Positions 2,383-28,602 of a stretch of 44,903 nt of DNA are shown piece after piece. The position numbers and the translations under genes were made by a program. This DNA is from Comamonadaceae bacterium (GTDB lineage Bacteria > Pseudomonadota > Gammaproteobacteria > Burkholderiales > Burkholderiaceae_C). Below the pieces are notes generated by a model, which made no database searches, had not been told where the DNA came from, and was given only the letters and a program-made list of their open reading frames with translations. The stretch is taken from assembly GCA_947451285.1 (NCBI GenBank), contig CANFYL010000005.1:1-44903 (forward strand), in the 5' to 3' direction. Numbering within the stretch: the stretch's first letter is position 1; every line of letters starts with the position of its first letter.

Positions 2383-3378
2383 GTGCCTGTCGTGAAGCTC
2401 AGCAGCGGACGTGAATTTTCGGCCACCGCAGGTGCCTCTTTGGTGGATGCGTCCTTGTTGGCGGGCATCACGCTGCCCCACAGCTGCAAAACGGGCCGTT
2501 GCAGCACCTGCAAGTGCAAAGTGCTGCAAGGCGAAACCACGGCCCTGCAAACAGAAACAGGGCTTACAGACGCAGAAAAAGCCGACGGCTGGATTCTTAG
2601 TTGCGTGCGATTGGCCCAAACCGATGTCACGCTAGAAGTCGAAGACCTGGGCAATGTCGTCTTGCCTCCCAGCAAAACCCTCCCTTGCCGCATCAGCAGC
2701 ATCGACCGGCTGGCCACCGACGTCATTCGTGTCATGCTGCGCCTGCCGCCAACGGCCGAATTCAGGTCTATTCCCGGTCAATATATTGACGTCATTGGCC
2801 CCGGTGGTGTGCGCCGCAGCTATTCACTGGCCAACGCCAACACGGCAGGCAAAACCCTGGAACTGCACATTCGCGCAGTCGATGGCGGCGTCATGAGTGA
2901 TTACTGGTTCAAGCAAGCCAAAGTCAACAATCTGTTGCGCTTCACCGGTCCCTTGGGCACCTTCTTTTTGCGAGGTCTGGACCAACTCAATCTGGTCTTT
3001 CTAGCGACTGGCACAGGCATTGCGCCTGTCAAAGCCATGTTGGAATCGCTCACCCATATCGCGCCCGAACATGCCCCTCTATCAGTCACCGTGTTTTGGG
3101 GTGGGCGCACTGCCGAAGACCTCTACTTTGACCCACAAGCGATCCCGGCAGGTCATCGGTTTGTACCCGTGCTGTCTCGTGCTGCAGCAGGCTGGGCTGG
3201 CGTCAGCGGCTACGTTCAAAACGCACTGCTTGCCACGCAGCCTGATCTGGCCCGCACCGTTGTGTATGCCTGCGGCTCAGACGCCATGATTCGCAGCGCC
3301 AGGTCCAGTTTGTTGACCGCAGGCCTTCCCGATAACCGGTTCTTTGCCGATGCGTTCGTACCTTCGACTTCTCATTAA
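2383..3378 (+). CDS. ddhD: CDP-6-deoxy-delta-3,4-glucoseen reductase (2Fe-2S flavoprotein)
   Basis: A 331-residue electron-transfer protein with a GTG start 6 bases after gmd. An N-terminal plant-type ferredoxin domain carries Cys35, Cys40, Cys43 and Cys74, the CxxxxCxxC...C pattern for a [2Fe-2S] cluster. An FAD domain with RRSYSLAN (about residues 145-152) and an NAD domain with TGTGIAP (about residues 208-214) follow. This is the E3/DdhD/AscD/RfbI architecture. The protein passes electrons from NADH to the PMP-enzyme DdhC (gene at 5243) during C-3 deoxygenation of CDP-4-keto-6-deoxyglucose. Its position before ddhA, rather than next to ddhC, is a local arrangement. Generic reductases of the same fold exist, but the CDP-sugar genes next to it settle the assignment. 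Confidence 0.92.
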   Translation: MPVVKLSSGREFSATAGASLVDASLLAGITLPHSCKTGRCSTCKCKVLQGETTALQTETGLTDAEKADGWILSCVRLAQTDVTLEVEDLGNVVLPPSKTLPCRISSIDRLATDVIRVMLRLPPTAEFRSIPGQYIDVIGPGGVRRSYSLANANTAGKTLELHIRAVDGGVMSDYWFKQAKVNNLLRFTGPLGTFFLRGLDQLNLVFLATGTGIAPVKAMLESLTHIAPEHAPLSVTVFWGGRTAEDLYFDPQAIPAGHRFVPVLSRAAAGWAGVSGYVQNALLATQPDLARTVVYACGSDAMIRSARSSLLTAGLPDNRFFADAFVPSTSH

Positions 3379-3396
3379 CTTTAACCAAAGCACTTT

Positions 3397-4170
3397 ATGA
3401 AAGCAGTCATTCTGGCCGGTGGCCTCGGCACTCGCCTTAGCGAAGAAACCGCAACTCGCCCAAAACCCATGGTTGAAATTGGTGGCAAGCCAATCCTCTG
3501 GCACATCATGAAGATGTATTCCCACCACGGCATCAACGACTTCATTGTCTGCTGTGGTTACAAGGGTTACCTCATTAAAGAGTATTTCGCCAACTACTTT
3601 TTGCACATGTCAGATGTCACGTTTGACATGCAAGCCAACATCATGCACGTGCACGAAAAACGCGCCGAACCTTGGAAAGTAACCTTGGTCGACACCGGCG
3701 ACAACTCCATGACAGGGGGGCGACTGCGCCGTGTTGCCGAACACGTCCAAGACGAAGAAGCTTTTTGCTTTACCTATGGTGACGGTGTGGGCGATAACGA
3801 CATTACCGCCAGCATCGCCTTCCATCGCAGCCATGGCAAAGCCGCTACATTGACTGCAACTTATCCTCCTGGCCGTTTTGGCGCATTGGACATTCAAGAT
3901 GGACAAGTTCGCAGTTTCAAAGAAAAACCTCGTGGAGATGGTGCCTTGATCAATGGTGGCTTTTTTGTTCTATCCCCCAAGGTACTGTCTTTGCTGGATG
4001 GTGATGACACCATTTGGGAGCAAGAGCCGCTCATGAAGTTGGCCGAACAAGGCGATCTCATGGCATTCAAGCATGAGGGCTTTTGGCAACCCATGGACAC
4101 CCTGCACGACAAAAATACCCTCGAAAAAATGTGGACCACCAACACAGCCCCCTGGAAGAAGTGGGAGTGA
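3397..4170 (+). CDS. rfbF: Glucose-1-phosphate cytidylyltransferase
   Basis: A 257-residue nucleotidyltransferase (also called ddhA or ascA) that makes CDP-D-glucose from CTP and glucose-1-phosphate, the entry step to CDP-3,6-dideoxyhexoses. The signature [20 protein letters not shown] runs from residue 7, and GDGVGDND near residue 128 carries the metal-binding Asp. Length is that of the family. The sequence around [17 protein letters not shown] and the C-terminal [10 protein letters not shown] are characteristic of this enzyme rather than of dTDP-glucose pyrophosphorylases. It sits 18 bases after ddhD, and its stop overlaps the possible GTG start of the next gene. Confidence 0.95.
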
Positions 4171-4178
4171 GCACAAGC

Positions 4179-5246
4179 ATGCAAATCCGCCCTGAATTTT
4201 GGCAAGGCCGCAAAGTGCTCATGACTGGGCACACCGGTTTCAAAGGCAGTTGGCTCAGCCTGTGGCTTCAGTCCATGGGCGCAGAGCTGCGCGGCATCGC
4301 CTTGGAGCCGCCAACGACGCCCGCCTTGTTTGATGTGGCCCAGGTGGCCAAAGGCATAGATAGCCACATTGTCGATATACGCGATGCCAGCGCCATCGCC
4401 CGCCTGGTCAAAGACTTCCAGCCCGAAATCATCATCCACATGGCCGCGCAGCCGTTGGTGCGCTTGTCTTATCAGCAGCCTATTGAAACTTACGCCACCA
4501 ATGTGATGGGCACGGTGCATGTGCTGGAGGCTGCACGACACGCAGGCAGCGTGTGTGCCATTGTCAACATCACCACCGACAAGTGCTACGACAACCGCGA
4601 ATGGGCCTGGGGCTACCGCGAAGACGAAGCCATGGGCGGGCATGATCCGTATTCCAGCAGCAAAGGCTGTGCAGAATTGGTGAGCAGCGCCTATCGCAAA
4701 TCGTTCTTAATAGATGCAGGCATCGCAATGGCCACGGCGCGAGCTGGCAACGTGATTGGCGGCGGCGACTGGGCGCTAGACCGCTTGGTGCCCGACACCT
4801 TGCTAGCGTTGGAAAAAGGCCAACCCGTACAAATTCGCAACCCACACGCCACTCGCCCATGGCAGCACGTGTTGGAGCCTTTGTCTGGCTATCTGCTGCT
4901 GGCAGAAAAGCTGCACGAACAAGGGCAAACCTTTGCCGAAGGCTGGAACTTTGGCCCGCGTGACGAAGATGCCCGCCCCGTGCAGAGGATTGTTGAACAG
5001 CTTTGCCAAGCCTGGGGGCAGGGCGCCAGTTGGCAACTGCAGCCAGGCCACCATCCGCACGAAGCCAACTACCTCAAGCTCGACATCTCCAAAGCCAAGC
5101 AGCGCCTGCATTGGGTGCCTCGCTGGTCGCTTGAGCATGCGCTTAAACACATCACCCACTGGCACCGAGCTTGGCTGGATGGGCAAGATATGCATGTCCT
5201 ATGCCTTCAACAAATCCATCAATACCAAAACCAGGCCCAACCATGA
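4179..5246 (+). CDS. rfbG: CDP-glucose 4,6-dehydratase
   Basis: A 355-residue NAD-dependent SDR (also ddhB/ascB) forming CDP-4-keto-6-deoxy-D-glucose. The Rossmann loop [10 protein letters not shown] is at residues 16-25. Landmarks include [28 protein letters not shown] and [11 protein letters not shown] (YxxxK near residue 157), then [10 protein letters not shown] and [13 protein letters not shown]. The open frame extends upstream inside rfbF. I chose ATG 4179 because the resulting N-terminus ([10 protein letters not shown]) matches the family, and GGAG lies upstream at 4164-4167. GTG 4167, which overlaps the rfbF stop, is an alternative giving four more residues. The 3' end overlaps the next gene by ATGA. 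Confidence 0.95.
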
Positions 5247-6595
5247 CCACTTCAACTGTCACCTTCAACCCCAAACTGGACAAACTGCGCACCCAAATCA
5301 GCGAGTTGGTGCAGCAATACGCAGAAATTGCGCATGCCCCTGTTCCCTTTGTACCTGGCCAGTCTGCTGTGCCAGTGTCGGGCAAAGTCATTGGTACCAA
5401 AGAGCTGCAGCTCATGGTGGAGGCATCGCTGGACGGCTGGTTGACCACGGGCCGCTTCAATGCCATGTTTGAAGAGCGCATGGCCAGATTTTTGGGCGTC
5501 AAGCATGTGCTGACGGTCAACTCTGGCTCGTCTGCCAACTTGGTGGCTTTCTCGGCATTGACCAGCCCCAAGCTGGGCGACCGCGCCATTCAACCCGGTG
5601 ACGAAGTCATTGGAGTGGCCGCAGGCTTCCCCACCACCGTCAACCCCATCCTGCAGTTTGGCGCCGTGCCCGTGTTTGTCGATGTCGACCTGGCCACTCA
5701 CAACATTGATGTATCAAAAATCGAAGCCGCTATCAGCCCCAAAACCAAAGCCATCATGCTGGCCCACAGCCTGGGCAACCCGTTTAACTTAGACATGGTT
5801 ACCGCCCTCTGCAAAAAATACAACCTGTGGTTGGTCGAAGACTGCTGCGACGCACTGGGTGCCACCTACAAAGGACAAATGGTCGGCACCTTTGGCGACA
5901 TCTCAACGCTGAGCTTTTACCCCGCGCACCACATCACCATGGGCGAGGGCGGTGTGGTGTTCACCAACAACAGCGAGCTGAAAATGATTGCGGAGTCCTT
6001 CCGCGACTGGGGCCGCGACTGCTATTGCCCACCCGGTAAAGACAACACCTGCGACAAACGCTTTTGCTGGACCAAAGAGCAAATCGGTGGAGACTTGCCC
6101 GACGGATATGACCACAAATACACGTACAGTCACCTGGGTTACAACCTAAAGATTACAGACATGCAAGCCGCGTGTGCCCTCGCGCAGATGGACCGTTTGG
6201 AAGAGTTCATTTCCAAGCGGCGCGCCAACTTCTCCTACTTAAAAGCACGTCTGCAAAGCTGCGCTGAATTTTTGCACCTGCCCGAGGCGGCTCCCAATTC
6301 AGAGCCATCGTGGTTTGGTTTTCCGCTGGTGTTGAAAGAAAGCAGCGGCATCAAGCGCACAGACCTGATCAATTACCTGGACCAAAACAAAATCGGCACA
6401 CGGCTTTTGTTTGCAGGCAACCTGACCAAGCAGCCCTATATGGCGGGCCGCAACTTCCGCGTAAGCGGTGAGCTGCAAAACACTGACGTGGTGATGAACC
6501 AGACCTTCTGGCTCGGCACCTTTCCGGGCCTGGATGAGCCGCAACTGGACTACATCGCGGACAAGCTCGAAGAGTTTTTTGGAGTCAATTTCTGA
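5243..6595 (+). CDS. rfbH: CDP-4-keto-6-deoxy-D-glucose 3-dehydrase (PMP / 2Fe-2S)
   Basis: A 450-residue member of the aspartate-aminotransferase fold sugar enzymes (also ddhC/ascC, E1). It removes the C-3 hydroxyl of CDP-4-keto-6-deoxyglucose together with the reductase at 2383. The usual PLP lysine is replaced by histidine in [14 protein letters not shown] (from about residue 223), the hallmark of this PMP-dependent dehydrase. The cluster cysteines [11 protein letters not shown] (about residues 259-269) follow, and a further pair lies in [12 protein letters not shown] 5243 overlaps the rfbG stop by 4 bases. Longer starts at 5171 would run into rfbG. The stop codon overlaps the start of the transketolase-like pair by one base, so the dehydrase and that pair are translationally coupled. 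Confidence 0.96.
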
Positions 6596-7449
6596 TGACA
6601 ATACTCGCGACTCCCAAAGTCGGCGCTTCTGCAGACACACGGTTCGCACCGGCAAGCCTGAGACGCACGGTACTAGAAATGGCCTATGCCGGATCAACCG
6701 TGCACATCGCATGTGCATTCTCGATCATTGAATTGGTCTCGGTACTGTACCGAAACCATCTGCGCTACCCAGGCAACGATCCACGTGCTGAAGGGCGCGA
6801 CTATCTGGTTCTTAGCAAAGGACATGGCGTTATGGCTCAGTACGCCTGCATGTATGAGTTGGGTTGGCTAAACGACTCACACATCCAGGGCTACTTTGCT
6901 GACGGCAGTGAGCTTAAGGGCCTGTCTGACTCGCGTGTGCCGGGGCTTGAGGTGACGTCAGGATCGTTGGGTCACGGCTTCTCCGTCGGCGTTGGCATCG
7001 CAATGGGACTACAACGCAAGAGCACTGACCAGAAGGTCTATGCCATCGTTGGTGACGGCGAGCTCAACGAAGGACCAATCTGGGAAGGTGCGCTGGTTGC
7101 GGCCCACCACCGGATGGACAACCTGATGCTGATCATTGACAAGAACGGGTTCCAGGCGATGGGCACGACGGATGACGTGTTAGCACTGGGCGACCTGTCC
7201 GCAAAGTTCACCAGCTTTGGCTTCGAGACGCTGGAGGTCGACGGGCATGACGAAGCGGCAATCGACATCGCAATCCACCAACTCTGGCGCACAGGCGTTG
7301 GCAAACCCAAAGCGCTGATCGCGCGAACTGTTAAAGGCAAAGGTGTGCCCTTCATGGAGTCAGACAACCGCTGGCATTACACACGCCTGGACGCTCAAAC
7401 GTTTTCCGAAGCAATCAATTCCCTCGATCCTAAGGGAGATTCTAAGTGA
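6595..7449 (+). CDS. Transketolase-like protein, N-terminal (TPP-binding) subunit
   Basis: A 284-residue protein matching only the pyrophosphate-binding half of transketolase. It shows SKGHG near residue 75, SGSLGHG near residue 122, and the TPP/metal motif GDGELNEG near residue 152 with DKNG about 30 residues later. The second half is encoded by the next gene (GTGA overlap), so the two make a split alpha2beta2-type transketolase. A housekeeping transketolase is one chain of about 660 residues. The ATG overlaps the rfbH stop (TGATG), which ties it to CDP-sugar synthesis. By analogy with YerE in yersiniose synthesis, which is a different TPP family, it may add a two-carbon unit to the 4-keto sugar. 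That role is inference; an unrelated pentose-phosphate role remains possible. Confidence 0.85.
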   Translation: MTILATPKVGASADTRFAPASLRRTVLEMAYAGSTVHIACAFSIIELVSVLYRNHLRYPGNDPRAEGRDYLVLSKGHGVMAQYACMYELGWLNDSHIQGYFADGSELKGLSDSRVPGLEVTSGSLGHGFSVGVGIAMGLQRKSTDQKVYAIVGDGELNEGPIWEGALVAAHHRMDNLMLIIDKNGFQAMGTTDDVLALGDLSAKFTSFGFETLEVDGHDEAAIDIAIHQLWRTGVGKPKALIARTVKGKGVPFMESDNRWHYTRLDAQTFSEAINSLDPKGDSK

Positions 7450-8360
7450 GAGACGCATTTTCCAACGCGCTGGTGCGCCTAGCTTTAGCTGACCCAACGG
7501 TGCTGCTGTTGACCGGTGACCACGGCTATGCGCTGTTCGATCAGTTCCGCAAACGCTGCCCAGATCAATATATAAATGCTGGTATTGCCGAGCAGAACAT
7601 GGTAGGCATGGCGGCGGGCCTAGCACGTGTCGGATTTCGACCGTTTGTTTATGGTTTGGCGGCATTCGTTCCGATCCGCACGGTTGAGCAAATCAAGCTC
7701 GACATTGCACATGACAACCTGCCTGTCGTATTGTTAGGTGACGGTGCTGGGTTTGTCTATAGCCATTTGGGAACCAGCCACCAGTCGACCGAGGACATCG
7801 CCTGCACTCGCGCGATCCCCGGTCTGCAAGTGCTGTCCCCAGCAGACCGTTTTGAAATGACGGCCTGCATGGACTACGCCTACGCCACGCGAGGCCCGGT
7901 CTATTTGCGCATGGGCAAGTCGGATTGCGGCGACGTGCATCTGGGCCCGATCGGCGCCCTGCAGTGCGGCCGCCTGCTTAAACTGCGTGACGGCCGACCG
8001 GACCGGCCCGGCCTAATCGCCACCGGATCGATGGTCCGTACCGCGATGAATATCGCTGAGTCACGCGAGTTAACGGTGTGGAGCGCCCCGTCCCTTAAGC
8101 CGTTGTCGGTGGACGACGTCCGCGCCGCCGCGAGCGGTTGCTCCAGCCTGGTGACGCTGGAAGAGCATTCGATGCTGAACGGCCTCGGCGCGGCTATCAC
8201 GGAGATCACCAGTGAACATGCCCTTACGCGTGTGCTGCGCATAGGCGTGCCGGACCGCTTCTCGGAACGCTGCGGCACGTACGCCTACTTGCTGTGCGAA
8301 CACGGCATTGACCATGAATCCGCCGGGCGTCGCATCGATGACTTCATCTCAGCTGCCTGA
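7446..8360 (+). CDS. Transketolase-like protein, C-terminal (pyrimidine-binding) subunit
   Basis: A 304-residue partner of the preceding gene, with a GTG start overlapping its stop (GTGA). It covers the pyrimidine-binding and C-terminal domains of transketolase. The cofactor-activating Glu lies in AGIAEQNMVGMAAGLA (Glu about residue 48), followed by RPFVYGLAAFVPIRTVEQIK. HLGTSHQSTEDIA fits the substrate-channel region, and the C-terminal Rossmann-like domain is present. Both halves keep their key motifs, so an active two-subunit enzyme is expected. It is encoded between rfbH and an SDR gene, which overlaps its 3' end by 47 bases if translated from 8314. The assignment to the family is firm; the reaction is not known. 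Confidence 0.85.
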   Translation: MRDAFSNALVRLALADPTVLLLTGDHGYALFDQFRKRCPDQYINAGIAEQNMVGMAAGLARVGFRPFVYGLAAFVPIRTVEQIKLDIAHDNLPVVLLGDGAGFVYSHLGTSHQSTEDIACTRAIPGLQVLSPADRFEMTACMDYAYATRGPVYLRMGKSDCGDVHLGPIGALQCGRLLKLRDGRPDRPGLIATGSMVRTAMNIAESRELTVWSAPSLKPLSVDDVRAAASGCSSLVTLEEHSMLNGLGAAITEITSEHALTRVLRIGVPDRFSERCGTYAYLLCEHGIDHESAGRRIDDFISAA

Positions 8361-9393
8361 GTTCCCCTCGTTCCGCCATCCGGCCAAGCGGAGGCTGTTC
8401 ATCACTGGCGGCACGGGCTTCCTCGGCCGCTCGCTGCTGGATCTCCTCGCGACGATCGCGCCGCAATGTTGGCCGGACCTGCAGATCGATGTGCTCAGCC
8501 GTGACCCGTCCGCCTTCCTGCGCCGCTTTCCGCATTACGCGGACCACCGCTGGCTCTCTATCGTCGAAGGTTCACTGGATCGGCTACCCGAGGGCCGAGG
8601 CTACACCGACCTGATCCATGGCGCGGCAGACACGCATTGGGACGGCGACAAACTGACCTGGTTGACGCAATTGGTCGACGGCACGCGCCAGATCCTCGCA
8701 TTCGCGCGAGAGACAAAAGTGCAGCGGCTGGTCTTCCTGAGTTCCGGCGCAGTTTATGGCCCCCGGCCTGATGAATTACCGCTCGATGAAAGTCAGCCCC
8801 AAGCTCCACTGTCCACCGACGTCTCCAAACTGTATGGCCACGGCAAGCGCATGGCAGAAACACTCTGCGCGCTCTATTCAGCCCAGTACGGCGTGCCGAG
8901 CGTCATCGCCCGCTGCTTTGCTGTTGTGAGTGGCCACGTGCCGCTAGACGGCCCCTACGCGGTTGGGAACTTCCTGCGTGATGCTCTCGATCCTAATAGG
9001 CCAGCCATCGTCGTACGAGGCACAGGACAGGCAGTGCGGACCTATATCGACGGCAGCGATATGGCGCGTTGGCTGCTGGCAATGCTTGACCACGGCACGC
9101 CTGGCGCCGCCTATAACCTCGGAGGCGATCAGCCCATCACTACCTTGGCCTTGGCCGAGATGGTGGCGCGTATCGTGTCGCCTGGCAAGCCTGTCCATGT
9201 GGAACGCCAAGTGGAGACTTCCTCGCAGTCCGATCGGTCGGTCTATGTCCCGTCCGTCGAACGCGCACGTGGCCTAGGTCTGGTGGCACGGGTGCCGCTC
9301 GAGGAGTCCATCGCCGTCGCCGCGCGCCACATTACCCTTCGCGGTGTCTTACCTAGCAGTCGACCTTCAGCAATATTCGGGTCGTTCGCATAG
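8314..9393 (+). CDS. NAD(P)-dependent SDR family epimerase/reductase
   Basis: A 359-residue extended SDR. The coenzyme loop GGTGFLG lies at residues 32-38, FLSSGAVYGP supplies the Ser/Thr of the active site, and LYGHGKRMAE (about residues 172-181) gives the YxxxK pair. It is not clearly GalE, RfbB or Fcl. Following the CDP-dideoxysugar genes and the split transketolase, it is placed to reduce or epimerise the final keto sugar, as YerF, Abe or Prt do in related pathways. That role comes from context only. Start choice is uncertain: ATG 8314 overlaps the previous gene, ATG 8338 gives a shorter leader, and neither has a strong ribosome-binding site. The G+C here is higher than in the genes after 10 kb. 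Confidence 0.8.
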   Translation: MNPPGVASMTSSQLPEFPSFRHPAKRRLFITGGTGFLGRSLLDLLATIAPQCWPDLQIDVLSRDPSAFLRRFPHYADHRWLSIVEGSLDRLPEGRGYTDLIHGAADTHWDGDKLTWLTQLVDGTRQILAFARETKVQRLVFLSSGAVYGPRPDELPLDESQPQAPLSTDVSKLYGHGKRMAETLCALYSAQYGVPSVIARCFAVVSGHVPLDGPYAVGNFLRDALDPNRPAIVVRGTGQAVRTYIDGSDMARWLLAMLDHGTPGAAYNLGGDQPITTLALAEMVARIVSPGKPVHVERQVETSSQSDRSVYVPSVERARGLGLVARVPLEESIAVAARHITLRGVLPSSRPSAIFGSFA

Positions 9394-9422
9394 CCGCCGG
9401 CCCCGCCACTCTTCAGACTTCC

Positions 9423-10292
9423 ATGGCTACCAGATCCCGACTGCTCGTCTTCATTCCCACCTACCGGCGCCCCGAAGCGCTGACGCGCCAGCTAGCGGCG
9501 CTGGAGTCGCTGCGAAAGGCCAACCCGGGGGTCGATATCGATATTCAAGTCTCCCACAACGAGTCGGCCGACGCACTGACGCGGGCAACTTCCGAAGGGC
9601 CCGCACACCACCGCTTTAACCCGATCAACCTGGGCGCCGACATCAATATCGCTTTGGCATTTACCGCCTGTGATGGGTACGACTTTCTCTGGATCCTCAG
9701 CGATGACGATTTCCTGTCACAGGACGACGGGCTGCCCCCGCTGCCCTTCGAAAAGGAGTTCGACCTACTGGTGTTCGATGACGCAAAGTGCGGCGCGGTG
9801 GAGACTAGGAAAATCCTCGCCTCAGATCTATTGAACTCGCGTATGGGCCTGATATCTGACGTCATCTACCGGGTGGACTCAGTGCGGACCAGCCTGCAGG
9901 AGTCATTGAACAACGTGAACTCCTGCTTTCCGCACTTGTCAGTCATCGCATCGGCCTTTGCCCGCCAAGCCTGCTGCATCCGCTATCTGTCGCGCTCGCC
10001 CACCTTCGCGCGTAATTCGAAGTACGACGCGGAGTGTGTCACCGACTACTCCGCTGCGCGCACCGGAGTGCTTATGGTGGGCAAGTACCTCCCTAAGAAA
10101 GAGCAGCGTCACTTCGCCTTCTTCTATGTTCGCCATGCCGATTTCTCAAAACTCAGCCTTGCAGGACCTAAAGGCTCCTTAATTGCCGTAGCCAGGGAAG
10201 TCTCCACGCTCCACATCTTGACTTTGCCAACACTTGTATTTTTTTACGTCCTAAGGAAGATGCAGAATTATGCTCACCGCACTTATAAATAA
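9423..10292 (+). CDS. Glycosyltransferase, GT-A fold (family 2-like)
   Basis: A 289-residue protein beginning RLLVFIPTYRRPEALTRQLA, the usual N-terminus of inverting GT2 enzymes. It has a DxD-type motif SDDDFLSQDD near residues 93-102 that would bind the metal and nucleotide sugar. The C-terminal half is poorly recognisable, ending in a hydrophobic stretch (LTLPTLVFFYVL) that may contact the inner membrane. It starts 30 bases after the SDR gene. Its last 23 bases overlap the FkbM gene, and composition drops there, so a recombination junction near its 3' end is possible. Donor and acceptor cannot be told from the sequence. Confidence 0.78.
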   Translation: MATRSRLLVFIPTYRRPEALTRQLAALESLRKANPGVDIDIQVSHNESADALTRATSEGPAHHRFNPINLGADINIALAFTACDGYDFLWILSDDDFLSQDDGLPPLPFEKEFDLLVFDDAKCGAVETRKILASDLLNSRMGLISDVIYRVDSVRTSLQESLNNVNSCFPHLSVIASAFARQACCIRYLSRSPTFARNSKYDAECVTDYSAARTGVLMVGKYLPKKEQRHFAFFYVRHADFSKLSLAGPKGSLIAVAREVSTLHILTLPTLVFFYVLRKMQNYAHRTYK

Positions 10293-10977
10293 TGCCAAAA
10301 TTCACATAAAGATATTTCTTGGAAAACGAATACATCCCTTCACGCATTTCCCTCAAACGGTCGACATAAAGACTTTTTTGGACATAGGAGCCAATAAGGG
10401 AGAGTACTCTTGGTCATATTTTCGTAGTTTTCCGAAGGGTCGCGCATGGCTGATCGAACCAATCCCGAAGTTGCACGACGTAATACGTGCAAAGCTTGAT
10501 GACCATGCTGACAGTTATATGCTGTTTGATGCTTGCCTAGGGGCTGGGCCGGGCATTGTCGACTTGCACGTAACAAATCATATTGGCGCTTCCTCTGTGT
10601 TGCCAATGCACGACGCTTTTGTCCAAGCCAACCCCCATGTGAAAGAGGTAGAAGTTATTCGAAAGAAACTCATTACTCTGGATGAGTTTGTAAATATAGA
10701 GTCGATTCCTCCTGTCGACTTACTGAAGGTTGACGTAGAGGGCTTCGAGCTTGAAGTCGTCTCTGGTGGAAAAAACTACCTGCGCAACGGCGTCAAATGG
10801 ATTCTTATTGAGCATAGTTTTGTGCGTAGCGCCGACAGCCAGCGTCGCTTTGTCGAAGTGCACTCCCTTTTGCTCGATTCAGACTTCGAGTTATACGCAA
10901 TCTGCGATCAATACCATCACGCAGACTCACACCGAATTATTCAGTTCGATGCCATCTACCGAAATCGAAACGAATGA
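10270..10977 (+). CDS. FkbM family SAM-dependent methyltransferase
   Basis: A 235-residue protein of the FkbM family. The SAM-binding motif FLDIGANKGEYS (residues 36-47) is followed by WLIEPIPK, and further on come KKLITLDEFV and LLKVDVEGFELEV (about residues 152-164), all in the usual order. FkbM proteins O-methylate sugars or polyketides. In an O-antigen cluster it would methylate a sugar residue of the repeat unit or cap the chain end. ATG 10270 has AAGGAAG upstream and overlaps the previous gene by 23 bases. The next gene overlaps its stop (ATGATGA). The gene is clearly poorer in G+C than the genes before 9.4 kb, which suggests separate acquisition. Confidence 0.88.
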   Translation: MLTALINNAKIHIKIFLGKRIHPFTHFPQTVDIKTFLDIGANKGEYSWSYFRSFPKGRAWLIEPIPKLHDVIRAKLDDHADSYMLFDACLGAGPGIVDLHVTNHIGASSVLPMHDAFVQANPHVKEVEVIRKKLITLDEFVNIESIPPVDLLKVDVEGFELEVVSGGKNYLRNGVKWILIEHSFVRSADSQRRFVEVHSLLLDSDFELYAICDQYHHADSHRIIQFDAIYRNRNE

Positions 10978-12062
10978 TGAAAGACAGCAATCGTTCTAGT
11001 GTTGTCTTTTTCCTTCCAAATTTGCAAATGGGAGGTGCCGAAAGCATGACAGTGTTGCTTGCAAGCTGGCTTTCAAGTCAAGGTTTTGGAATTTCAAGCG
11101 TGGTTCTGCATGCGCAGTCACGCAAATTTGACCATCTAGGTCCTCGTCTGGCAGGCACCGAGGTAAAAGTCCTTCATGGAGTAATTGGCTACGTGCGCAC
11201 ACTCCTTTCGAGTTGCTTGCGTGGGAGAGCGACGACCTTTGTTGCGGCTACAGAGACATACCCCGTGCTACTCTCGTTAGTCGCACATCTTCTTTGCCCT
11301 CGATCGCGGCTAATATTATGGCTGCACACCGACCCCTGCCGCTATTTCCAGCAAATGCCGCGATTTCGTCGCTTATACCGATTCGTCGCCCAATCTGGTC
11401 TCGCGAAGATTATCTGTGTTTCAGAAACCGTAGCAAGGCAACTGTTAGTATTTACTGGGAAGCTAGTACCTTCGGTAGTCATTCACAATGCCATCGACCC
11501 TAATGAGGCGATATCTATACGCAATGCATGCCAAAGTAACCAAGCGACGCCAACTCAAATCGGCTATGTCGGTCGTATTTCGAAGGAGAAAGGAATCGAT
11601 AGTCTGCTGTTGGTGTTTGTTGATCCAACTTTTAGCGCTGGCAGACCGGAGCTTTCCCTTAGCGTTTTCACTGACGAGGCGGGAGAACGTATCCTCCATT
11701 CACGCATTAAAGATTTGACTGGTTGTAGAGTTCTTGTAAGTCAACGCAAAGAGCAAATCTACAGTGCCATTGGTACAGTTGTAATTGCTTCGTGGTTTGA
11801 AGGATTTTCCTTAGTTTGCCTGGAGGCAATAACGGGTGGTTTAAATATTGTGTATCGCCGGGAACTTGACGCGGTGAAAGAACTGTTGGAGATCGCAAAT
11901 TATCCAGCAGCAAACCGATTTGAATATTCAACAAATGAAGAGATGTTGTCTGCGATTCTGAGGTCGTCACAAACTCCGAGACTTCGAATAGAGAACCATA
12001 CTGAAATTTCGGCTCTTGGCTTTGCGAAGTTTTCACGGGCTTGGCTCAGCCAATTAAGTTGA
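10974..12062 (+). CDS. Glycosyltransferase family 4
   Basis: A 362-residue GT-B fold enzyme. FFLPNLQMGGAESMTV near the N-terminus carries the glycine-rich acceptor-side loop. IGYVGRISKEKGID (about residues 196-209) opens the donor domain, and SWFEGFSLVCLEAI (about residues 272-285) holds the EX7E-type glutamates of retaining GT4 enzymes. The donor sugar is unknown. Start ATG 10974 overlaps the FkbM stop; ATG 10977 is equally possible. The gene has the same reduced G+C as its FkbM neighbour, so the two probably arrived together. Confidence 0.85.
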   Translation: MMKDSNRSSVVFFLPNLQMGGAESMTVLLASWLSSQGFGISSVVLHAQSRKFDHLGPRLAGTEVKVLHGVIGYVRTLLSSCLRGRATTFVAATETYPVLLSLVAHLLCPRSRLILWLHTDPCRYFQQMPRFRRLYRFVAQSGLAKIICVSETVARQLLVFTGKLVPSVVIHNAIDPNEAISIRNACQSNQATPTQIGYVGRISKEKGIDSLLLVFVDPTFSAGRPELSLSVFTDEAGERILHSRIKDLTGCRVLVSQRKEQIYSAIGTVVIASWFEGFSLVCLEAITGGLNIVYRRELDAVKELLEIANYPAANRFEYSTNEEMLSAILRSSQTPRLRIENHTEISALGFAKFSRAWLSQLS

Positions 12063-12107
12063 TGAGGCGCTTCCAGTTATCTAAAAGTGATAGGCGGCGT
12101 AATTATT

Positions 12108-13364
12108 ATGAACTCTTCACTTTTGCGTGAATTGAATCCTGCACTTATATCATTTGCAACTCGCTTCATCGGGCTGGGTATGCAGGCAGCGACGTTATTT
12201 ACCATGCGTCTGCTGCACCCGGCCGAAGCGCAGGCGCTTTTCTTCACGGCGCAGACCGTGCTGGGCCTGCAGTTCCTGGCGGAGTTCGGCGCGACCCAGG
12301 CGATGCTGCAGCGCATGCGGCGGGCGCAGGTGGACCCGACGCTTAAGCCCTGCCACCTGCTCTTCGGGCCCTATGCGCTGGTGGCCAGCACGCTCTTCCT
12401 CGGCCTCATCGTCCTGGCCTGGGCGGGTTTCTACGGCCACAGTCTGCCGCAACCCGCGCTACTGATCGGCGCCCTGGCTCTGGCGGGCGCGCTGCGGCTG
12501 TCCACCGTGTTCGTCGAAGCCCATGTGGAGGGTTCCGGCCGCATCAACGAGGTCTACCGCACCCGATTCGTCGCCACGCTGGCCAGCCAGGCCGCCATGC
12601 TGGCTGGCATGGCGCTGCTCTCGCCAATGATCGCGCTGTTGTGCAGCACTCTCACCTACGTGCTGTTTTCCAAGGGGCTGCAGCGCCGCGACGTGCGGCA
12701 CTTCTACAGCGGTGTCAGGCTGGAGCGCGGCGCGCTGGCCGAGCTGCTGTCCGACCTGCGTGCCACGGGCCGCTACCAGGTGTCGCTGATGCTGTCGGCA
12801 GCCTGCGGCTACCTGATCTTCTCGGGTCCCGTGATCGTCGCCGGCATGGTGCTGGATGCCAGCCGCGTGGCGGAGATCGGCACCTCCTTGCTGCTGGCCA
12901 GCGTGGCGTCCAGCCTGTGCGGGGCCATCATCGCCCCCTACTCGGTGCGCATCATGGACAACATGCTCCATGGCCGCACTCAGGCAGCCTGGTACCTGGA
13001 GCGCCGCCTGATCGCCGCCAGCGCCAGCCTGTTCGCTGCGGCGGTCGTCGCGCTGTGGCTGGCAGAGTTCATGCACCTTCGCGCGCTGCCGGCCACCCAA
13101 GACCTCATGCTGGCGCTGGCGGCTTACTTCTGCTTCTCGCAGGGACTGGTCTTCGCGCCCGGCCTGCGAGCCCTCGGCAACGACCGCATGCTGCTGCCCT
13201 CCGTGGTCGCGGCAGCGGCCTTCGCAGCACTGTCCGCAGGCACGCTCAACCACCTCACCTGGGGTCCGGATCCCCTCTGGATCTTCGCGATCGCGCAGGG
13301 CGGCGTGTTCCTGCCCCTGGTCCTGTTGACCCGCCGCGTGCTGCATCGCTCGACTTGGACATGA
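12108..13364 (+). CDS. wzx: Flippase-like polysaccharide export membrane protein (Wzx type)
   Basis: A 418-residue polytopic membrane protein with about 12 hydrophobic segments and few charged loops, the layout of Wzx/MATE-like flippases. It would move lipid-linked repeat units across the inner membrane for Wzy to polymerise. ATG 12108 is preferred because AGGCGG lies about 10 bases upstream; GTG 12087 would add seven residues. The first 25 or so codons are AT-rich (about 43% G+C in 12121-12180), then the gene becomes very G+C-rich (about 70% in 12241-12300), so a recombination breakpoint inside its 5' end is likely. It overlaps the GT10 gene by 4 bases (ATGA). Confidence 0.75.
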   Translation: MNSSLLRELNPALISFATRFIGLGMQAATLFTMRLLHPAEAQALFFTAQTVLGLQFLAEFGATQAMLQRMRRAQVDPTLKPCHLLFGPYALVASTLFLGLIVLAWAGFYGHSLPQPALLIGALALAGALRLSTVFVEAHVEGSGRINEVYRTRFVATLASQAAMLAGMALLSPMIALLCSTLTYVLFSKGLQRRDVRHFYSGVRLERGALAELLSDLRATGRYQVSLMLSAACGYLIFSGPVIVAGMVLDASRVAEIGTSLLLASVASSLCGAIIAPYSVRIMDNMLHGRTQAAWYLERRLIAASASLFAAAVVALWLAEFMHLRALPATQDLMLALAAYFCFSQGLVFAPGLRALGNDRMLLPSVVAAAAFAALSAGTLNHLTWGPDPLWIFAIAQGGVFLPLVLLTRRVLHRSTWT

Positions 13365-14434
13365 CAACCCTCGCCATCGCCTCCGGGCTGCCCAGCCTGG
13401 ACAACTCGACTGACCTGCGCGCGTTTCCCGATTACGCGAGTTATCCCGGTTCCATCTGGTACCAGGCCCTGGCCGAGGAAGCCGCCCAACGCAGCCTGCC
13501 CCTGCTGGGCGCGGAAGCTGCGCTGAGCCAGGTGTCGCAGGGCCGGCTAGACGCCCGTTCGGTGCTGCTGGTGCAGGAACGCGAATCGCGCAGCGGCGAA
13601 GCGCTGCTTCGCCTGGGCGCTCGCGGCGGCGCGCTGACCTGCCTCGAATCGCCGATGTACGCCAGCAAGTTTTACCGGAATCTGCCACTGATCTCCGGCA
13701 GTTTCCACGCCTCCTTCCTGTTCGCGCCCTTCGTGCACACCTCTCGCGCCAAACGGTCGGAGATCATCTGTTTCCCGCGCGTGTCGCTCGCCCAGGCGTT
13801 CTCGGCGAACGGCCCGCGCAGCGGCTTCATCGCGATCGCCAGCTACCGCAGCACGCCGCAGCAGGGGCTGAACGTTCGGGGCCGTTTCCGCCTGGCGCTG
13901 GACACGGTCCAGAGCGCTGCGGTCCGGGACGGTGTGAGGAACCACCTGCTGGGCGTGCGTGCCCAGGTCATCGAGCAGGCGGCTGGCGTCGATCAGGTCC
14001 ATGTCTATGGCCGCCACTGGCCCGCCCCGTCGACGCTTGCGCCGCGCCACGCGGAGCGCATCACGGTCGCGGGCCCTTGTGACGACAAGATCGAGACGCT
14101 GCGTCGACACCGCTTCAACATCTGTCTCGAGAACGCGGCCATCCCCGGCTACGTAACCGAGAAGTTCGCCGATGCTGTTGAGGCCGGTTGTGTGCCTATC
14201 TATGCAGCACGTAATTTTGCCTCTTGTGACACATCACTCTACCCACCTTTCGTCGACGCGGATGAACTGATATCAACCAAAACCCCTAAACAGCTTCTGG
14301 ACCGGGTGGCCAGTAAGTTCGATGAATGGCTGGCCCAGCCTCACGCAAGCCAACGATTCCTCAACCTGTTCAGCCACACCGACCTTGCGCGTCGTGTCAT
14401 GCTTTCCATTGAGCCATGCTTCAAATCGAGATAA
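13361..14434 (+). CDS. Alpha-1,3/4-fucosyltransferase-like glycosyltransferase (GT10)
   Basis: A 357-residue protein whose C-terminal third carries the GT10 signature: FNICLENAAIPGYVTEKF followed by GCVPIYAA (about residues 252-284). This motif binds GDP-fucose in Helicobacter FucTs and eukaryotic alpha-1,3-fucosyltransferases. The N-terminal part is not conserved, as is normal. The open frame extends far upstream through wzx in another frame; ATG 13361, overlapping the wzx stop, is the credible start. The GDP-fucose genes at the start of the locus provide its likely donor. Composition falls from about 62-70% to about 50% G+C near 14170, inside the gene, just after the signature motif. It overlaps the next gene by 19 bases. 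Confidence 0.8.
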   Translation: MTTLAIASGLPSLDNSTDLRAFPDYASYPGSIWYQALAEEAAQRSLPLLGAEAALSQVSQGRLDARSVLLVQERESRSGEALLRLGARGGALTCLESPMYASKFYRNLPLISGSFHASFLFAPFVHTSRAKRSEIICFPRVSLAQAFSANGPRSGFIAIASYRSTPQQGLNVRGRFRLALDTVQSAAVRDGVRNHLLGVRAQVIEQAAGVDQVHVYGRHWPAPSTLAPRHAERITVAGPCDDKIETLRRHRFNICLENAAIPGYVTEKFADAVEAGCVPIYAARNFASCDTSLYPPFVDADELISTKTPKQLLDRVASKFDEWLAQPHASQRFLNLFSHTDLARRVMLSIEPCFKSR

Positions 14435-15258
14435 TTATTCTTCACAGTGGTCGTGTGAACCGTCTTAGGGCTTGCTTGGCCCGAGTAGCACCGTTGGCGC
14501 AATTGCCGGGCATATCCGTGCGCGTCAGCGATAACTCTGGCAAGCACACAGCAGCACCCTTAGCGGCGGATTATCCGGACATCCCCTTCAAGCACCGTCA
14601 ACGATGCACCTTCCCTGAGCACTTCAATGCCAACTCGACCGAAGCGCAGGGTGACATCGTCGTGCTCCTGCACGACGATGATGCCGTCACGTCCGAATAC
14701 ATAGCGGCGATCCGCAACGTGTTCGTCGATCCAGACGTGGTGGCCGTCTCCACCAATGCTCAGGTGGAGGTTGCGGAAGGCACCATCTATGGATTGTTTG
14801 CCACTATGCCAGACAACCAAACATTGCGAAATCCGGACCAGCTTCTGCTAGCCTACTTCGGTCAAGGTACCAGCGCGTTCTGCCCCTTCAGCCTCTACGC
14901 CTACAGGCGCAGCGCCCTACTGATGCGGCGCTACCGTGACGACTTAGCAGGCAAATATTCGGACGTGTCTTTCATTGCTAGCCAACTCGAGCTAGGGACG
15001 ATTCGCTGGCTGGGTGCGCCACTGGGAATCGTTGGCCATTTCGGCGACAACGACAGCCATAACGAAGACTCGCGCCACCGTTTACTACAATTTAATGTGA
15101 TGGAACAGTTGCCAGTCGCTCCTGCGACGCTACGCATGACGCAACGCCACATAGGGCGTAAGATTTTCATGAAGCTGGGCGCGGATCTCTATCACTTCCG
15201 CAAACCCGCTCTAAACCTATCCAATTACCTATCCGTCGCTAGACGCTGTTTGCGGTAA
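14416..15258 (+). CDS. Glycosyltransferase family 2
   Basis: A 280-residue GT-A enzyme starting MLQIEIIILHSGR, with the nucleotide-binding motif VVLLHDDDAVTSEYI (DDD about residues 86-88) and a following YAYRRSALLMRRY segment. These proteins transfer a sugar from a nucleotide donor to the lipid-linked oligosaccharide at the cytoplasmic face. The start overlaps the GT10 gene by 19 bases and the stop lies 6 bases before the polymerase gene. Composition is intermediate between the G+C-rich block before it and the AT-rich block after it. Specificity is not evident. Confidence 0.85.
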   Translation: MLQIEIIILHSGRVNRLRACLARVAPLAQLPGISVRVSDNSGKHTAAPLAADYPDIPFKHRQRCTFPEHFNANSTEAQGDIVVLLHDDDAVTSEYIAAIRNVFVDPDVVAVSTNAQVEVAEGTIYGLFATMPDNQTLRNPDQLLLAYFGQGTSAFCPFSLYAYRRSALLMRRYRDDLAGKYSDVSFIASQLELGTIRWLGAPLGIVGHFGDNDSHNEDSRHRLLQFNVMEQLPVAPATLRMTQRHIGRKIFMKLGADLYHFRKPALNLSNYLSVARRCLR

Positions 15259-15264
15259 GCCGCT

Positions 15265-16398
15265 ATGAAACTCGCCTGGATTACCCTCATTATCGCGTTG
15301 GCTATCGCATCGCCTCAGTTTTGGTTAAGGCTTGATGCCCCATCGAATCTGCAACCTATTTTCCTGCTTGCCTTTATATTCTTTGCCCTGTTTAAAGGAA
15401 AGGTAAGTATCCCAAGTCGCCTCGCACCGAGACTTGTTTTGCTTGGATTTTTCACACTTTTTATGGCGGGGTTATTGTCACTGCCGTTTGCCAGGGAATT
15501 TGAATTATTCAAGCAGGAATTTTATCGTCGGATAATATTATTTCTTTTTTTTATTGCGGCCTATACGGCTGCAAGTACAAGCGATAAGCTTTTTCGATCG
15601 GTCACTTATGTGGCGGTTGTTACTACAATTATATATCTGGCTACCATGGTGCTATATTATATAGGTTGGGACGTTTTGTCCGAAAGCGGTGCGTTCGATT
15701 CATATCCATTCGGCTTAATATTTCCAATTGCGGTCTACAACAATCCGCTAATATTTTCAGAGACGCAAGTAATGGGGTATTTTATTATTGGTGCTGCAAT
15801 GCTTCATTTCGCAAAAGCGAGTAAGACTTTTTGGTCATTGTTGCTTGCAGGGATGTTGCAGTTTGGCAAGGGGCCAATAATTGGCTATGCGGCATCATTA
15901 CTCCCGAAACTTTCGCGCGTCCTAATGATATTAGTATTGCCGCTAGTTTTTTTTATTGCTGCTACAAGCTATTCGGGTGCACCAAGATTTGATGGTGATT
16001 TTGGTTCGCTATCAGAACGAGTGTTTCATGCCAATTTTGTTCTTCACTCGCTTCTGGAGCATCCTCTGCTTGGTGCTTTAGGATATGGGTTTCGGCAGTA
16101 CGGTACCTATGTTCAGTTTATTAGCGGCGATTTTAATCAAGACACTCAGCCACTCTCTGTAATGCAATGGTTTTTTGAAGCTGGAGTTCCACTTGCTTTG
16201 TTTGGACTGATAGCACTGTTTGCCGGTACAGTTGTTTTATCAGGCAAACGATGGCTGCCTGTAGGTATCTATCTATTTATCGGCCACCTGGCCCTGCCTA
16301 ACCCCGTTGATCCAGCTGTGTTACTATTATTTGCATTATTTTCTGCCCAGATTAATGGATTTCCAAAAAATTCAAATGAACAAAGAAATATTTCTTGA
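15265..16398 (+). CDS. wzy: O-antigen polymerase (Wzy-like) membrane protein
   Basis: A 377-residue hydrophobic protein with about ten predicted membrane spans and one large loop near residues 240-300, a layout shared by Wzy polymerases and O-antigen ligases. Short elements such as EHPLLGALGYGFRQYG in the loop resemble the Wzy_C region. As the only such protein in the cluster, and next to a flippase-like gene, polymerase is the more likely role. The gene is AT-rich (about 40% G+C in 15541-15600), unlike the host-type genes, a common property of wzy. The 3' end overlaps the next gene by 23 bases. Confidence 0.75.
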   Translation: MKLAWITLIIALAIASPQFWLRLDAPSNLQPIFLLAFIFFALFKGKVSIPSRLAPRLVLLGFFTLFMAGLLSLPFAREFELFKQEFYRRIILFLFFIAAYTAASTSDKLFRSVTYVAVVTTIIYLATMVLYYIGWDVLSESGAFDSYPFGLIFPIAVYNNPLIFSETQVMGYFIIGAAMLHFAKASKTFWSLLLAGMLQFGKGPIIGYAASLLPKLSRVLMILVLPLVFFIAATSYSGAPRFDGDFGSLSERVFHANFVLHSLLEHPLLGALGYGFRQYGTYVQFISGDFNQDTQPLSVMQWFFEAGVPLALFGLIALFAGTVVLSGKRWLPVGIYLFIGHLALPNPVDPAVLLLFALFSAQINGFPKNSNEQRNIS

Positions 16399-17434
16399 TG
16401 CACGGCTTTCAGCGAATTCAGGCATTGGACGTTATATCGATTGTCTTATTCATGAATTTGTTAAGCATCCCGACTGGGGCTACAGTTGGTCACTGCTTAC
16501 AAATGACAAATCACAATTTGGCAGAGTAGGCGAATGCTACAAAAGCCAGTTAAGTCCTTTCTCGCCTCTATGGCAGCTTCAAGCGCCCCTGGTTATTCCA
16601 AGACATAAACTGCTTTGGACCCCTCACTGGAATCACCCATTATTGACTGGCTCCAGAGTGGCTAATGTGGTCACAATACACGATGTTATGCCGCTGCGGT
16701 TTCCAGAACTTTATTCAAACTTTGATCGCTATTTATTTAATCTATTTTTATCCGCTGCTGTTAAGAGAAAATATACCATAATCACTGTTTCGGATTTTTC
16801 AAAAAGAGAGATACTGGATTTATACCCCTCTGCAATAGTGGAGGTTATTTTTAATGGAACCACGGCACTCCCATTTGATCATTCTGGAGAAAATAGCCGG
16901 AATCCTTACCTTCTCTGTGTGGGAAACTGGAAACCACACAAAAATATTTCGTTTGCGATCCGAGCCTTCAGGTTGGCTAAAGAACGAGGCTGGATTAGTT
17001 CAAATATAAAACTTATCGTTGCGGGCAAAGTTAAGGGGCTGCGCCAAGCGGATTCGTCATTGCTGCAGATCTACGGCAGAGAGCCTGACATAAAATTCGT
17101 AGAGCATCCATCCGACTCGAAACTAGGACGGCTTTATCAAGACTGCCTTGCACTCATCGCTCCGTCCAAATATGAAGGGTTTGGGCTTCCCATACTTGAA
17201 GCGATGCATTTTAATAAGCCAATTGTTTGTTCCGACATCCCTCCTTTCAGAGAAATCGCTGATAATACAGTGGAGTATTTTGATGTCCAGGATGTTGATG
17301 CTTGCGCCATTGCGATAACTAAGATTGTGTCAACTATGGGAGCTTGCGAAAGTCGGTATGAACAAATATTGAAACGCTTCACCTGGGCTCAATCAGCTTT
17401 GACTCACCATCAGATTTTTAGCAAATTATATTAA
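16376..17434 (+). CDS. Glycosyltransferase family 4 (mannosyl/rhamnosyltransferase-like)
   Basis: A 352-residue GT-B enzyme. The start ATG 16376 gives MNKEIFLDARLSANSGIGRY, the standard N-terminus of WbdA/WbpY-type GT4 enzymes, which transfer mannose or rhamnose. Earlier in-frame starts lie deep inside wzy. VGNWKPHKN (about residues 180-188) marks the donor domain. PSKYEGFGLPILEAM (about residues 262-276) carries the two conserved glutamates, and the gene ends with a TAATG overlap to the next glycosyltransferase. It is AT-rich like wzy and the following gene. The linkage formed is not predictable. Confidence 0.87.
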   Translation: MNKEIFLDARLSANSGIGRYIDCLIHEFVKHPDWGYSWSLLTNDKSQFGRVGECYKSQLSPFSPLWQLQAPLVIPRHKLLWTPHWNHPLLTGSRVANVVTIHDVMPLRFPELYSNFDRYLFNLFLSAAVKRKYTIITVSDFSKREILDLYPSAIVEVIFNGTTALPFDHSGENSRNPYLLCVGNWKPHKNISFAIRAFRLAKERGWISSNIKLIVAGKVKGLRQADSSLLQIYGREPDIKFVEHPSDSKLGRLYQDCLALIAPSKYEGFGLPILEAMHFNKPIVCSDIPPFREIADNTVEYFDVQDVDACAIAITKIVSTMGACESRYEQILKRFTWAQSALTHHQIFSKLY

Positions 17435-18252
17435 TGATTTCACTTATTCTTGCGACTTTGGGACGGTATGAGGAACTTGACCGCTGCATCGAGTCTATAC
17501 TATCACAAATTAATGTTAAATACGAAATTTTAGTGGTAGATCAAAATCGCCCTGAATTTCTCTCCAATCTTCGCGAGAAATATTCTGACGTTCGCATTGT
17601 TTGGAAAAACATTTCTACAGTTGGATTGTCGAATGCGCGCAACGAAGGTCTCGCATTGGCTCGTTATAATAGGATAGCTCTTATCGATGATGATTCAGTT
17701 TTGCAAAATCCGCGGCACTTGCAAAATGCTATTTCCTGGCTTGAGCGATACGACTTTGTTAGTGGCATATGTGTCGACTTTAACGGAGTAGACGCAAATA
17801 AATTTTTTCCAACTAACGATGTAGTTATCTCCTCTTCGAATATTTTTTCATGCATCATAAGCCCTTGCTTCTTCTTTAATTTAAAAAAAGATGCCGTATT
17901 TGATGTCCGGCTGGGAGTTGGGGCGTATTTTGGAAGTGGAGAAGAAACCGATTTTGCAATCACTTTAATTATCGACGGCGGAACAGGCTATTTTACTCGC
18001 TCCCTTAGTGTTATTCATCCCGAAGGAGATGGCAAACAACTTTCCAAAAGTCGTCGATATAAATATGCACTTGGGGTCGGTGCGCTGATGCGTAAGCGAT
18101 CTCTTTTTTTTGGCCCGCGTATGGTAATTCGCAAAATATTGGGCCCACTGCTGACGTCTCTTAGGCATTTGTCGAATGGGAAGTTGGTTCACGCAAAGCT
18201 ATCAGTGATAGATTTTTTAGGGCGCGTCTATGGATATTTGGTTTTTAGGTAG
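17434..18252 (+). CDS. Glycosyltransferase family 2
   Basis: A 272-residue GT-A enzyme beginning MISLILATLGRYEELDRCIES, with IALIDDDSVLQNP (DDD about residues 85-87) as the metal and nucleotide-binding motif and GSGEETDFAITL further on, close to the usual ED region. The ATG overlaps the stop of the previous GT4 gene. It is the last gene of the AT-rich block. The 99 bases before galE hold no other gene. Donor and acceptor are unknown. Confidence 0.86.
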   Translation: MISLILATLGRYEELDRCIESILSQINVKYEILVVDQNRPEFLSNLREKYSDVRIVWKNISTVGLSNARNEGLALARYNRIALIDDDSVLQNPRHLQNAISWLERYDFVSGICVDFNGVDANKFFPTNDVVISSSNIFSCIISPCFFFNLKKDAVFDVRLGVGAYFGSGEETDFAITLIIDGGTGYFTRSLSVIHPEGDGKQLSKSRRYKYALGVGALMRKRSLFFGPRMVIRKILGPLLTSLRHLSNGKLVHAKLSVIDFLGRVYGYLVFR

Positions 18253-28588: not shown

Positions 28589-28602
28589 GCGTGATTTTAA
28601 AG

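Follow-up and report, generated by a model that had tools for sequence, protein, structure and literature searches.

A split transketolase as the candidate branching enzyme of yersiniose-type sugar cassettes in Gram-negative bacteria

RfbH together with a reductase yields CDP-3,6-dideoxy-4-keto-glucose, and in yersiniose synthesis the thiamine diphosphate (ThDP) enzyme YerE adds a two-carbon unit to its C4 ketone before YerF reduces the product. Here we report on a gene cassette in a stretch of 44,903 nucleotides from a Comamonadaceae bacterium (contig CANFYL010000005.1 of assembly GCA_947451285.1; hereafter the window), in which rfbH is followed by two genes, TKN and TKC, for the halves of a split transketolase and by a gene for a short-chain dehydrogenase/reductase (SDR).

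Two-subunit ThDP enzymes have been linked to keto sugars before. Those of the alpha-KADH2 type (aldgamycin, kibdelomycin, avilamycin, paulomycin) transfer, as proposed or shown, the acetyl group of pyruvate to keto sugars or their analogues (PMC12247030, PMC4753412; this and the other papers are cited from excerpts). A 2025 review gives just 13 split transketolase candidates for ketone acceptors; according to its excerpted text they all come from Streptomycetes and still await characterisation in vitro (PMC12247030). The split transketolase of Carboxydothermus hydrogenoformans (ChTK), which has His100 (residue numbers follow E. coli TktA), is the sole transketolase of its host and, according to the excerpted text, rejects pyruvate (PMC7661550). 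Pyruvate is no donor for normal transketolase; H100L and D469T were introduced to allow it, and the addition of S385Y gave an about 400-fold higher specific activity with a bulky acceptor (PMC10787763). An H100L transketolase of Geobacillus is cited as reaching a third of the activity of 1-deoxy-D-xylulose-5-phosphate synthase (DXS) on pyruvate (PMC7661550). We consider it reasonably probable that the pair encoded in the window is a pyruvate-using split transketolase, a non-orthologous replacement of YerE, which makes a yersiniose-type sugar.

The cassette and its split transketolase

The O-antigen-like locus spans 280 to about 19320 of the window (contig C5 of a genome 62% complete). Within it, the ddhD-ddhA-ddhB-rfbH-TKN-TKC-SDR genes are arranged head to tail:

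2383..3378, + strand: DdhD-like [2Fe-2S]/FAD reductase (Fer2, FAD_binding_6 and NAD_binding_1 domains)
3397..4170, + strand: ddhA/rfbF, glucose-1-phosphate cytidylyltransferase (TIGR02623, 472.6 bits, cut-off 300.25)
4179..5246, + strand: ddhB/rfbG, CDP-glucose 4,6-dehydratase, ATG start (TIGR02622, 511.1 bits, cut-off 278.45)
5243..6595, + strand: ddhC/rfbH, pyridoxamine phosphate (PMP)-dependent C3 dehydratase (NF011936, 744.5 bits, cut-off 423)
6595..7449, + strand: TKN, ThDP-diphosphate-binding half of the split transketolase, 284 amino acids (PF00456, E 2.2e-33)
7446..8360, + strand: TKC, pyrimidine-binding and C-terminal half, 304 amino acids, GTG start (PF02779, E 1.8e-29; PF02780, E 1.2e-12)
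8314..9393, + strand: SDR5-type reductase (PF01370, E 1.5e-28; GGTGFLG and YGHGK motifs)
280-2376: GDP-fucose genes, upstream of the ddhD-like reductase

The overlaps of 1, 4 and up to 47 bases that the initial annotation had given for the rfbH, TKN, TKC and SDR genes are exact in the reading frames. RfbH ends and TKN starts at 6595, TKC starts at 7446 and TKN ends at 7449, and the start options of the SDR overlap the end of TKC (8360) by 47 (ATG 8314), 53 (TTG 8308) or 23 bases (ATG 8338). A further 4-base overlap joins ddhB (end 5246) and rfbH (start 5243).

Both halves belong to the split-gene transketolases. Transketolase_N lies in one chain, Transket_pyr and Transketolase_C lie in the other, and the best PDB matches were 6yak, the N half of the Carboxydothermus enzyme, for TKN and 6yaj, a chain of the same enzyme, for TKC. 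The single-chain TPP_enzyme_N/M/C architecture of the YerE type was not found, both halves being transketolase-type. An assignment to alpha-KADH2 does not fit the scores of TKN (29.7 bits for E1_dh versus 116.1 for Transketolase_N) and TKC (31.8 bits for the pyruvate dehydrogenase (PDH) E1 beta model versus 136.8 for transketolase). Nor does DXS, given the two chains and the 26.8 bits of TKN on DXP_synthase_N (cut-off 21.2) against the 116.1 bits quoted above.

Scanning 84,980 species genomes gave 178 confirmed relatives, and the locus counts below rest on the best 80 of these. The 84 sequences treated as a clade are set apart from the rest by one branch of full support (SH-aLRT 100 in a quick tree). 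All of them keep the residues of ThDP binding and catalysis, namely H26, H66, G114, D155, N185, H261, E411 and H473, which bears out the earlier statement that both halves retain their ThDP motifs. R358 is likewise kept in 84/84, and four residues are changed in all (H100L, H461G, D469L, R520K). The informative codons of the window are as follows:

6922..6924, + strand: Leu110 of TKN, equivalent to TktA His100 (donor recognition); Leu in 84/84
7743..7745, + strand: Gly100 of TKC, equivalent to TktA His461 (phosphate site); Gly in 84/84
7767..7769, + strand: Leu108 of TKC, equivalent to TktA Asp469; Leu in 84/84
7779..7781, + strand: His112 of TKC, equivalent to TktA His473; His in 84/84
7917..7919, + strand: Lys158 of TKC, equivalent to TktA Arg520; Lys in 84/84

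In the alignment with intermediate sequences, the position of S385 holds Ala in 79 and Ser in five members, and a Tyr sits one residue before. A natural S385Y, suggested by the first alignment (Tyr in 84/84), was therefore dropped on re-reading.

Among 399 genomes of the same order, 58 places encode a TKN-like protein (E up to 1e-40). The clade accounts for four of these, the window's own among them; of the other 54, the 17 that were read, mostly the best-scoring ones, comprise 16 with His100 and one with Ile. Since nearly all the others read keep His100 while H461G and D469L are common outside the clade, H100L is the mark of the clade. Because His100 and the phosphate-site residues (S385, H461, R520) of the split-gene transketolases are changed, TKN/TKC is, judged by these positions, a transketolase homologue rather than an ordinary transketolase. 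Asp469 is presumably the contact to the acceptor's neighbouring hydroxyl, and its loss would fit an acceptor whose C3 hydroxyl has been removed by RfbH.

The same observations bear on the idea that the pair is an accessory pentose-phosphate transketolase, a mere supplier of precursors present in the locus by chance, the SDR alone making a 3,6-dideoxyhexose of the abequose or paratose type. Some split transketolases are active on ordinary substrates (PMC7661550), and the role of SDR5 as a branch reductase is putative. A chance neighbour is nevertheless hard to reconcile with the linkage to rfbH in 75 of the 80 loci across five phyla, with the separate full-length transketolase of the window's genome (an open frame of 701 amino acids) and with phosphate-site and donor residues altered in 84/84, and we regard this explanation as the least probable of those considered here, with hardly any weight.

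The place of YerE and the nature of the donor

The initial annotation had placed the transketolase pair in the position of YerE and the SDR in that of YerF, and both assignments gained from a survey of the rfbH neighbourhoods. In the 399 genomes rfbH was found at 54 places, 51 of which were classified (G003, on a short contig, G170 and one of three places in G251 were left out). Six of the 51, window included, stand with a split transketolase, 18 have an acetohydroxyacid synthase (AHAS)-type ThDP enzyme within 6 kb and 27 have neither. The SDR completing the transketolase cassette is SDR5 in 38, X6 in 35, both in one and neither in 10 of the 84 loci; beside the AHAS-type gene of 19 rfbH loci (the second cassette of Curvibacter included) it is SDR5 in eight, X6 in five and neither in six. 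The X6 proteins next to AHAS-type genes are 63-70% identical to those of the transketolase loci. Eight of the 19 AHAS-type enzymes form a subfamily with 67-85% mutual identity, one member of which matched PDB 5ahk with 579 bits (next best 266); we take 5ahk to be the YerE of P. protegens. The loci of these eight hold five X6 and three SDR5 reductases.

Besides ddhA, ddhB and rfbH, the window has candidates for both the ThDP branching enzyme and the branch reductase, as expected of a yersiniose-type cassette, and both SDR5 and X6 are reductases of the kind found with YerE, set beside YerF by context only. In trees of rows longer than 200 amino acids (41 X6; 47 of 50 SDR5; quick method without bootstrap), the AHAS- and transketolase-linked SDR5 rows are interleaved (seven changes, 168 of 500 shuffles as low). 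The branching enzyme and the reductase look interchangeable between cassettes, which is what one would see if the two kinds of branching enzyme passed the same type of 4-C-acyl sugar on to the reductase.

The product is suggested by one probable carrier. Yersiniose A was reported from Burkholderia brasiliensis (Mattos 2005, as cited in PMC4153317 and PMC4753412), in a polysaccharide called exopolysaccharide (EPS) in the text of PMC4153317, O-polysaccharide in the cited title and O-antigen in PMC4753412. Strain M130 of that name is probably Paraburkholderia kururiensis M130, which NCBI lists as a strain (the synonymy is weighed below). The type strain of P. kururiensis (L128) has a single rfbH, within the transketolase cassette with SDR5, and the profile search found no YerE ortholog in its genome (best 327 bits). 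On this profile the positives scored 1208-1213 bits (three genomes that contributed their YerE to the profile) and 1155 bits (independent genome G339). Among 15 carriers, comprising the window's own genome, where 62% completeness makes the negative weak, and 14 others, no YerE ortholog was found either (maximum 328.5 bits). Other AHAS-type enzymes beside rfbH scored 449 bits (G127) and, in two cases, 277-280 bits, less than the IlvB-like match in the genome that encodes them. Within 20 kb of the carriers' rfbH no TPP_enzyme_N gene was found apart from that of the second cassette of Curvibacter.

In the initial proposal, the C4 ketone receives a glycolaldehyde (hydroxyacetyl) unit, with hydroxypyruvate or a ketose phosphate as donor, and reduction by the SDR then leads to a 1,2-dihydroxyethyl branch and a new octose. 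The family of the pair and the retention of His473, His26, His261 and Arg358 agree with this proposal, as do the split transketolases of miharamycin and amipurimycin, proposed to transfer hydroxyacetyl to keto sugars (PMC12247030), and two other rfbH-linked split transketolases with His100 (L039, L047). It has to face His100 being Leu in 84/84, the change engineered for pyruvate use, a phosphate site altered at H461, R520 and S385 in all or most members, reductase families common to YerE cassettes and a probable carrier making yersiniose A, not a dihydroxyethyl sugar. Because of the Leu in 84/84 and the yersiniose A of the probable carrier, acetyl transfer from pyruvate to a yersiniose-type product is the better reading; the glycolaldehyde donor and the octose are probably less likely, and we could not uphold either, rating hydroxyacetyl transfer as unlikely.

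Transfer of a longer hydroxylated acyl chain, as by ErwE and the caryophyllose-type enzymes, would give an erwiniose-like sugar. ErwE, which is YerE-like, does so on the same acceptor (PMC12247030), and the hydrophobic Leu at position 100 might accept longer chains. In the 19 loci, though, the 5ahk-like YerE subfamily is the only AHAS type beside which X6 occurs. The 15 gene clusters that reach at least 8 of 81 loci comprise the cassette, GDP-fucose genes, glycosyltransferases, GtrA and Wzz, and no chain-building gene was recognisable among them, which leaves this route very unlikely.

For the preferred pathway, with pyruvate as donor, the genes of the established route (DdhA, DdhB, RfbH and a DdhD-type reductase) are present and would supply CDP-3,6-dideoxy-4-keto-glucose. 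TKN and TKC, as the conserved order and the shared reductases suggest, would form one ThDP enzyme that attaches two carbons at the C4 ketone, as YerE does. The donor would most likely be pyruvate, decarboxylated on ThDP to give a 4-C-acetyl sugar, as is indicated mainly by the change of His100 to Leu. Reduction of the acetyl group by the SDR would leave a 1-hydroxyethyl branch, and the resulting yersiniose-type sugar would enter the O-antigen-like polysaccharide whose genes follow downstream.

Several points weigh against this pathway. Donor and product are deduced from sequence throughout. H100L is a lost donor contact and as such no proof of pyruvate use, and binding of a hydroxyacetyl donor through His473 is still conceivable. 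H461G and D469L are no donor mark, since they also occur in 13 and 12 of the 17 other split transketolases, nearly all of these with His100, and the His100 control covers only those 17 of 54 places, mostly best-scoring. TKC is matched nearly equally by DXS and transketolase models (128 versus 137 bits), so the C half alone is ambiguous. That B. brasiliensis M130 is P. kururiensis M130 is an assumption, which the literature searched did not settle, and the genome searched is that of the type strain, whose O-antigen may differ from that of M130. The YerE profile cannot separate distant AHAS-type branching enzymes (277-280 bits) from IlvB. The five AHAS-linked rows of the X6 tree cluster together (SH-aLRT 88, unstarred; one change, 0 of 500 shuffles as low), which amounts to a single switch between branching enzymes, and this cluster is nested in the transketolase rows only by the midpoint root and a support of 86. 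The starred branches of the SDR5 tree force only two changes, and several AHAS-linked SDR5 proteins are distant, sharing 29-33% identity with the seeds; two of the three from the YerE group are among them.

Distribution and surroundings of the cassette

The rfbH-TKN-TKC-SDR order, which the initial annotation had asked to be sought in other genomes, recurs. Among the best 80 loci TKC is present in 80, RfbH (counted at >=45% identity) in 75 and DdhA in 66, and 74 of 84 have SDR5 or X6. The 4-base overlap of TKN and TKC was found in 72 of 83 relatives. The ddhD-like gene has a homologue of at least 30% identity in 16 of 80 loci, and in the window its product could be the partner serving RfbH. 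RfbH was missing from the fetched stretch in five of the 80 loci: the contig end explains L104 and L129, and L061, L112 and L117 are real exceptions; all five have an RfbH match elsewhere in the genome (L061 in two pieces, 54-56%). The three nearest TKN relatives in the same-order genomes (62-74% identity) each have ddhA, a ddhB-type gene and RfbH no more than about 5 kb away. Clade members are labelled Pseudomonadota, Chlorobiota, Cyanobacteriota, Planctomycetota and Bacteroidota, many being metagenome bins, and this spread over five phyla suggests wide exchange of the transketolase clade.

Two genomes hold two rfbH cassettes. Curvibacter sp. HBC61 has, besides the transketolase cassette, a second one (L137 5600-11888) that includes a gene with a methyltransferase domain and one for an AHAS-type enzyme whose nearest PDB entry is 8rph. 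The window's genome carries on contig C8 (G000:C8:15624-16961; L208 5743-11435) a second ddhD-ddhA-ddhB-rfbH set; a PF00908 epimerase and an SDR come next, which makes the arrangement ascarylose-like, and its RfbH is 82% identical to that of the window. Hence, the statement that no ascarylose-type epimerase is evident holds for the window cassette and fails genome-wide. Since both genomes hold two cassettes each, the products of rfbH go to different ends via different end modules.

The split transketolases L039 (7781-14737) and L047 (3815-10938) lie outside the clade, and each locus holds an Epimerase-type SDR and an FkbM-type methyltransferase. As rfbH-linked enzymes with His100 kept, they are better candidates for hydroxyacetyl branching than the clade of the window. 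Six further loci (L043, L044, L049, L051, L052, L053) have split transketolases beside an SDR resembling GDP-mannose dehydratase (GMD), about 22-27% identical to the GMD of the window; RfbH was not found in their fetched stretches, and they possibly represent another branched-sugar pathway. In a phage collection (H41-H45), 27 records have a TKC-like frame of less than 60% identity, ten of them labelled Listeria phage; these could be host DNA or cargo genes.

Downstream of the cassette, the O-antigen-like locus of the window encodes glycosyltransferases, an FkbM-type protein and a GalE-like epimerase, as well as long frames without a Pfam match, of which 12087-13364 and 15265-16398 are, judged by eye, maybe membrane proteins. 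In related loci a GtrA-type gene follows TKC within 3 kb in 13 of 81 (e.g., L073 12657-13055, L128 11654-13170), and a family 2 glycosyltransferase, GtrB-like by appearance, within 4 kb in 19 of 81. These GtrA/GtrB-like neighbours hint at undecaprenyl phosphate as a possible carrier of the branched sugar.

The GC content is 60-69% at 7800-9900 and 12300-14400 and about 39-60% elsewhere within 3000-19800. The rise past about 7800, together with the lower identity in the C-terminal half of TKC, had hinted at a joint; a recombination mosaic was dropped because the drop in identity is clade-wide (medians 83.5, 76, 50 and 51% in 80 loci). Further along the window, the - strand encodes a YcaO protein with an OsmC domain (26390-28633) and a type-I-like export set of HlyD, ABC and OEP (33651-37944).

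No rfbH-linked transketolase was found among the literature matches listed, which cover 5.39 million open-access papers, most subscription papers lying outside. Within the open papers searched, the Gram-negative clade appears undescribed so far, because the excerpted 2025 review lists keto-sugar-branching split transketolases only from Streptomycetes, none tested in vitro (PMC12247030). If the proposed function is true, yersiniose-type sugars of Gram-negative O-antigens would have two unrelated routes to C4 branching. The second one could explain yersiniose in a species without a YerE ortholog and would offer a natural source of pyruvate-using, ketone-accepting transketolases. The SDR5/X6 pair would make the ketoreduction to yersiniose A or B, uncharacterised according to the excerpted PMC4753412, directly testable. 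We give even chances to a broader proposal: a monophyletic, widely exchanged, naturally pyruvate-using clade (H100L on D469L) replaced YerE, SDR5 and X6 set the epimers (yersiniose A or B), and L039 and L047 make undescribed hydroxyacetyl-branched sugars.

Comparison with known systems

The YerE/YerF pathway (Yersinia pseudotuberculosis O:6 type) resembles the window in its CDP-3,6-dideoxy-4-keto-glucose genes and in where its ThDP branching enzyme is encoded, and the SDR of the window comes from families found beside YerE-type genes, a likeness of context rather than to YerF itself. YerE is a single chain of the AHAS/decarboxylase superfamily, whereas the branching enzyme of the window would be a two-subunit protein of the transketolase family. 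ChTK (6YAK/6YAJ) is the closest solved relative of both halves, with the same split and the same ThDP residues, but unlike the window pair it keeps His100, His461 and Asp469. The alpha-KADH2 enzymes belong to another ThDP superfamily, the E1 models of which the window halves match weakly. The split transketolases of miharamycin and amipurimycin are likewise proposed to branch a keto sugar, although with a hydroxyacetyl group. The engineered E. coli transketolase 6M/TK-1 (H100L, D469T, S385Y) shares H100L and the lost acid at D469, both natural in the clade; it is a laboratory variant, whereas the clade has D469L and, at S385, Ala or Ser with Tyr one residue before.

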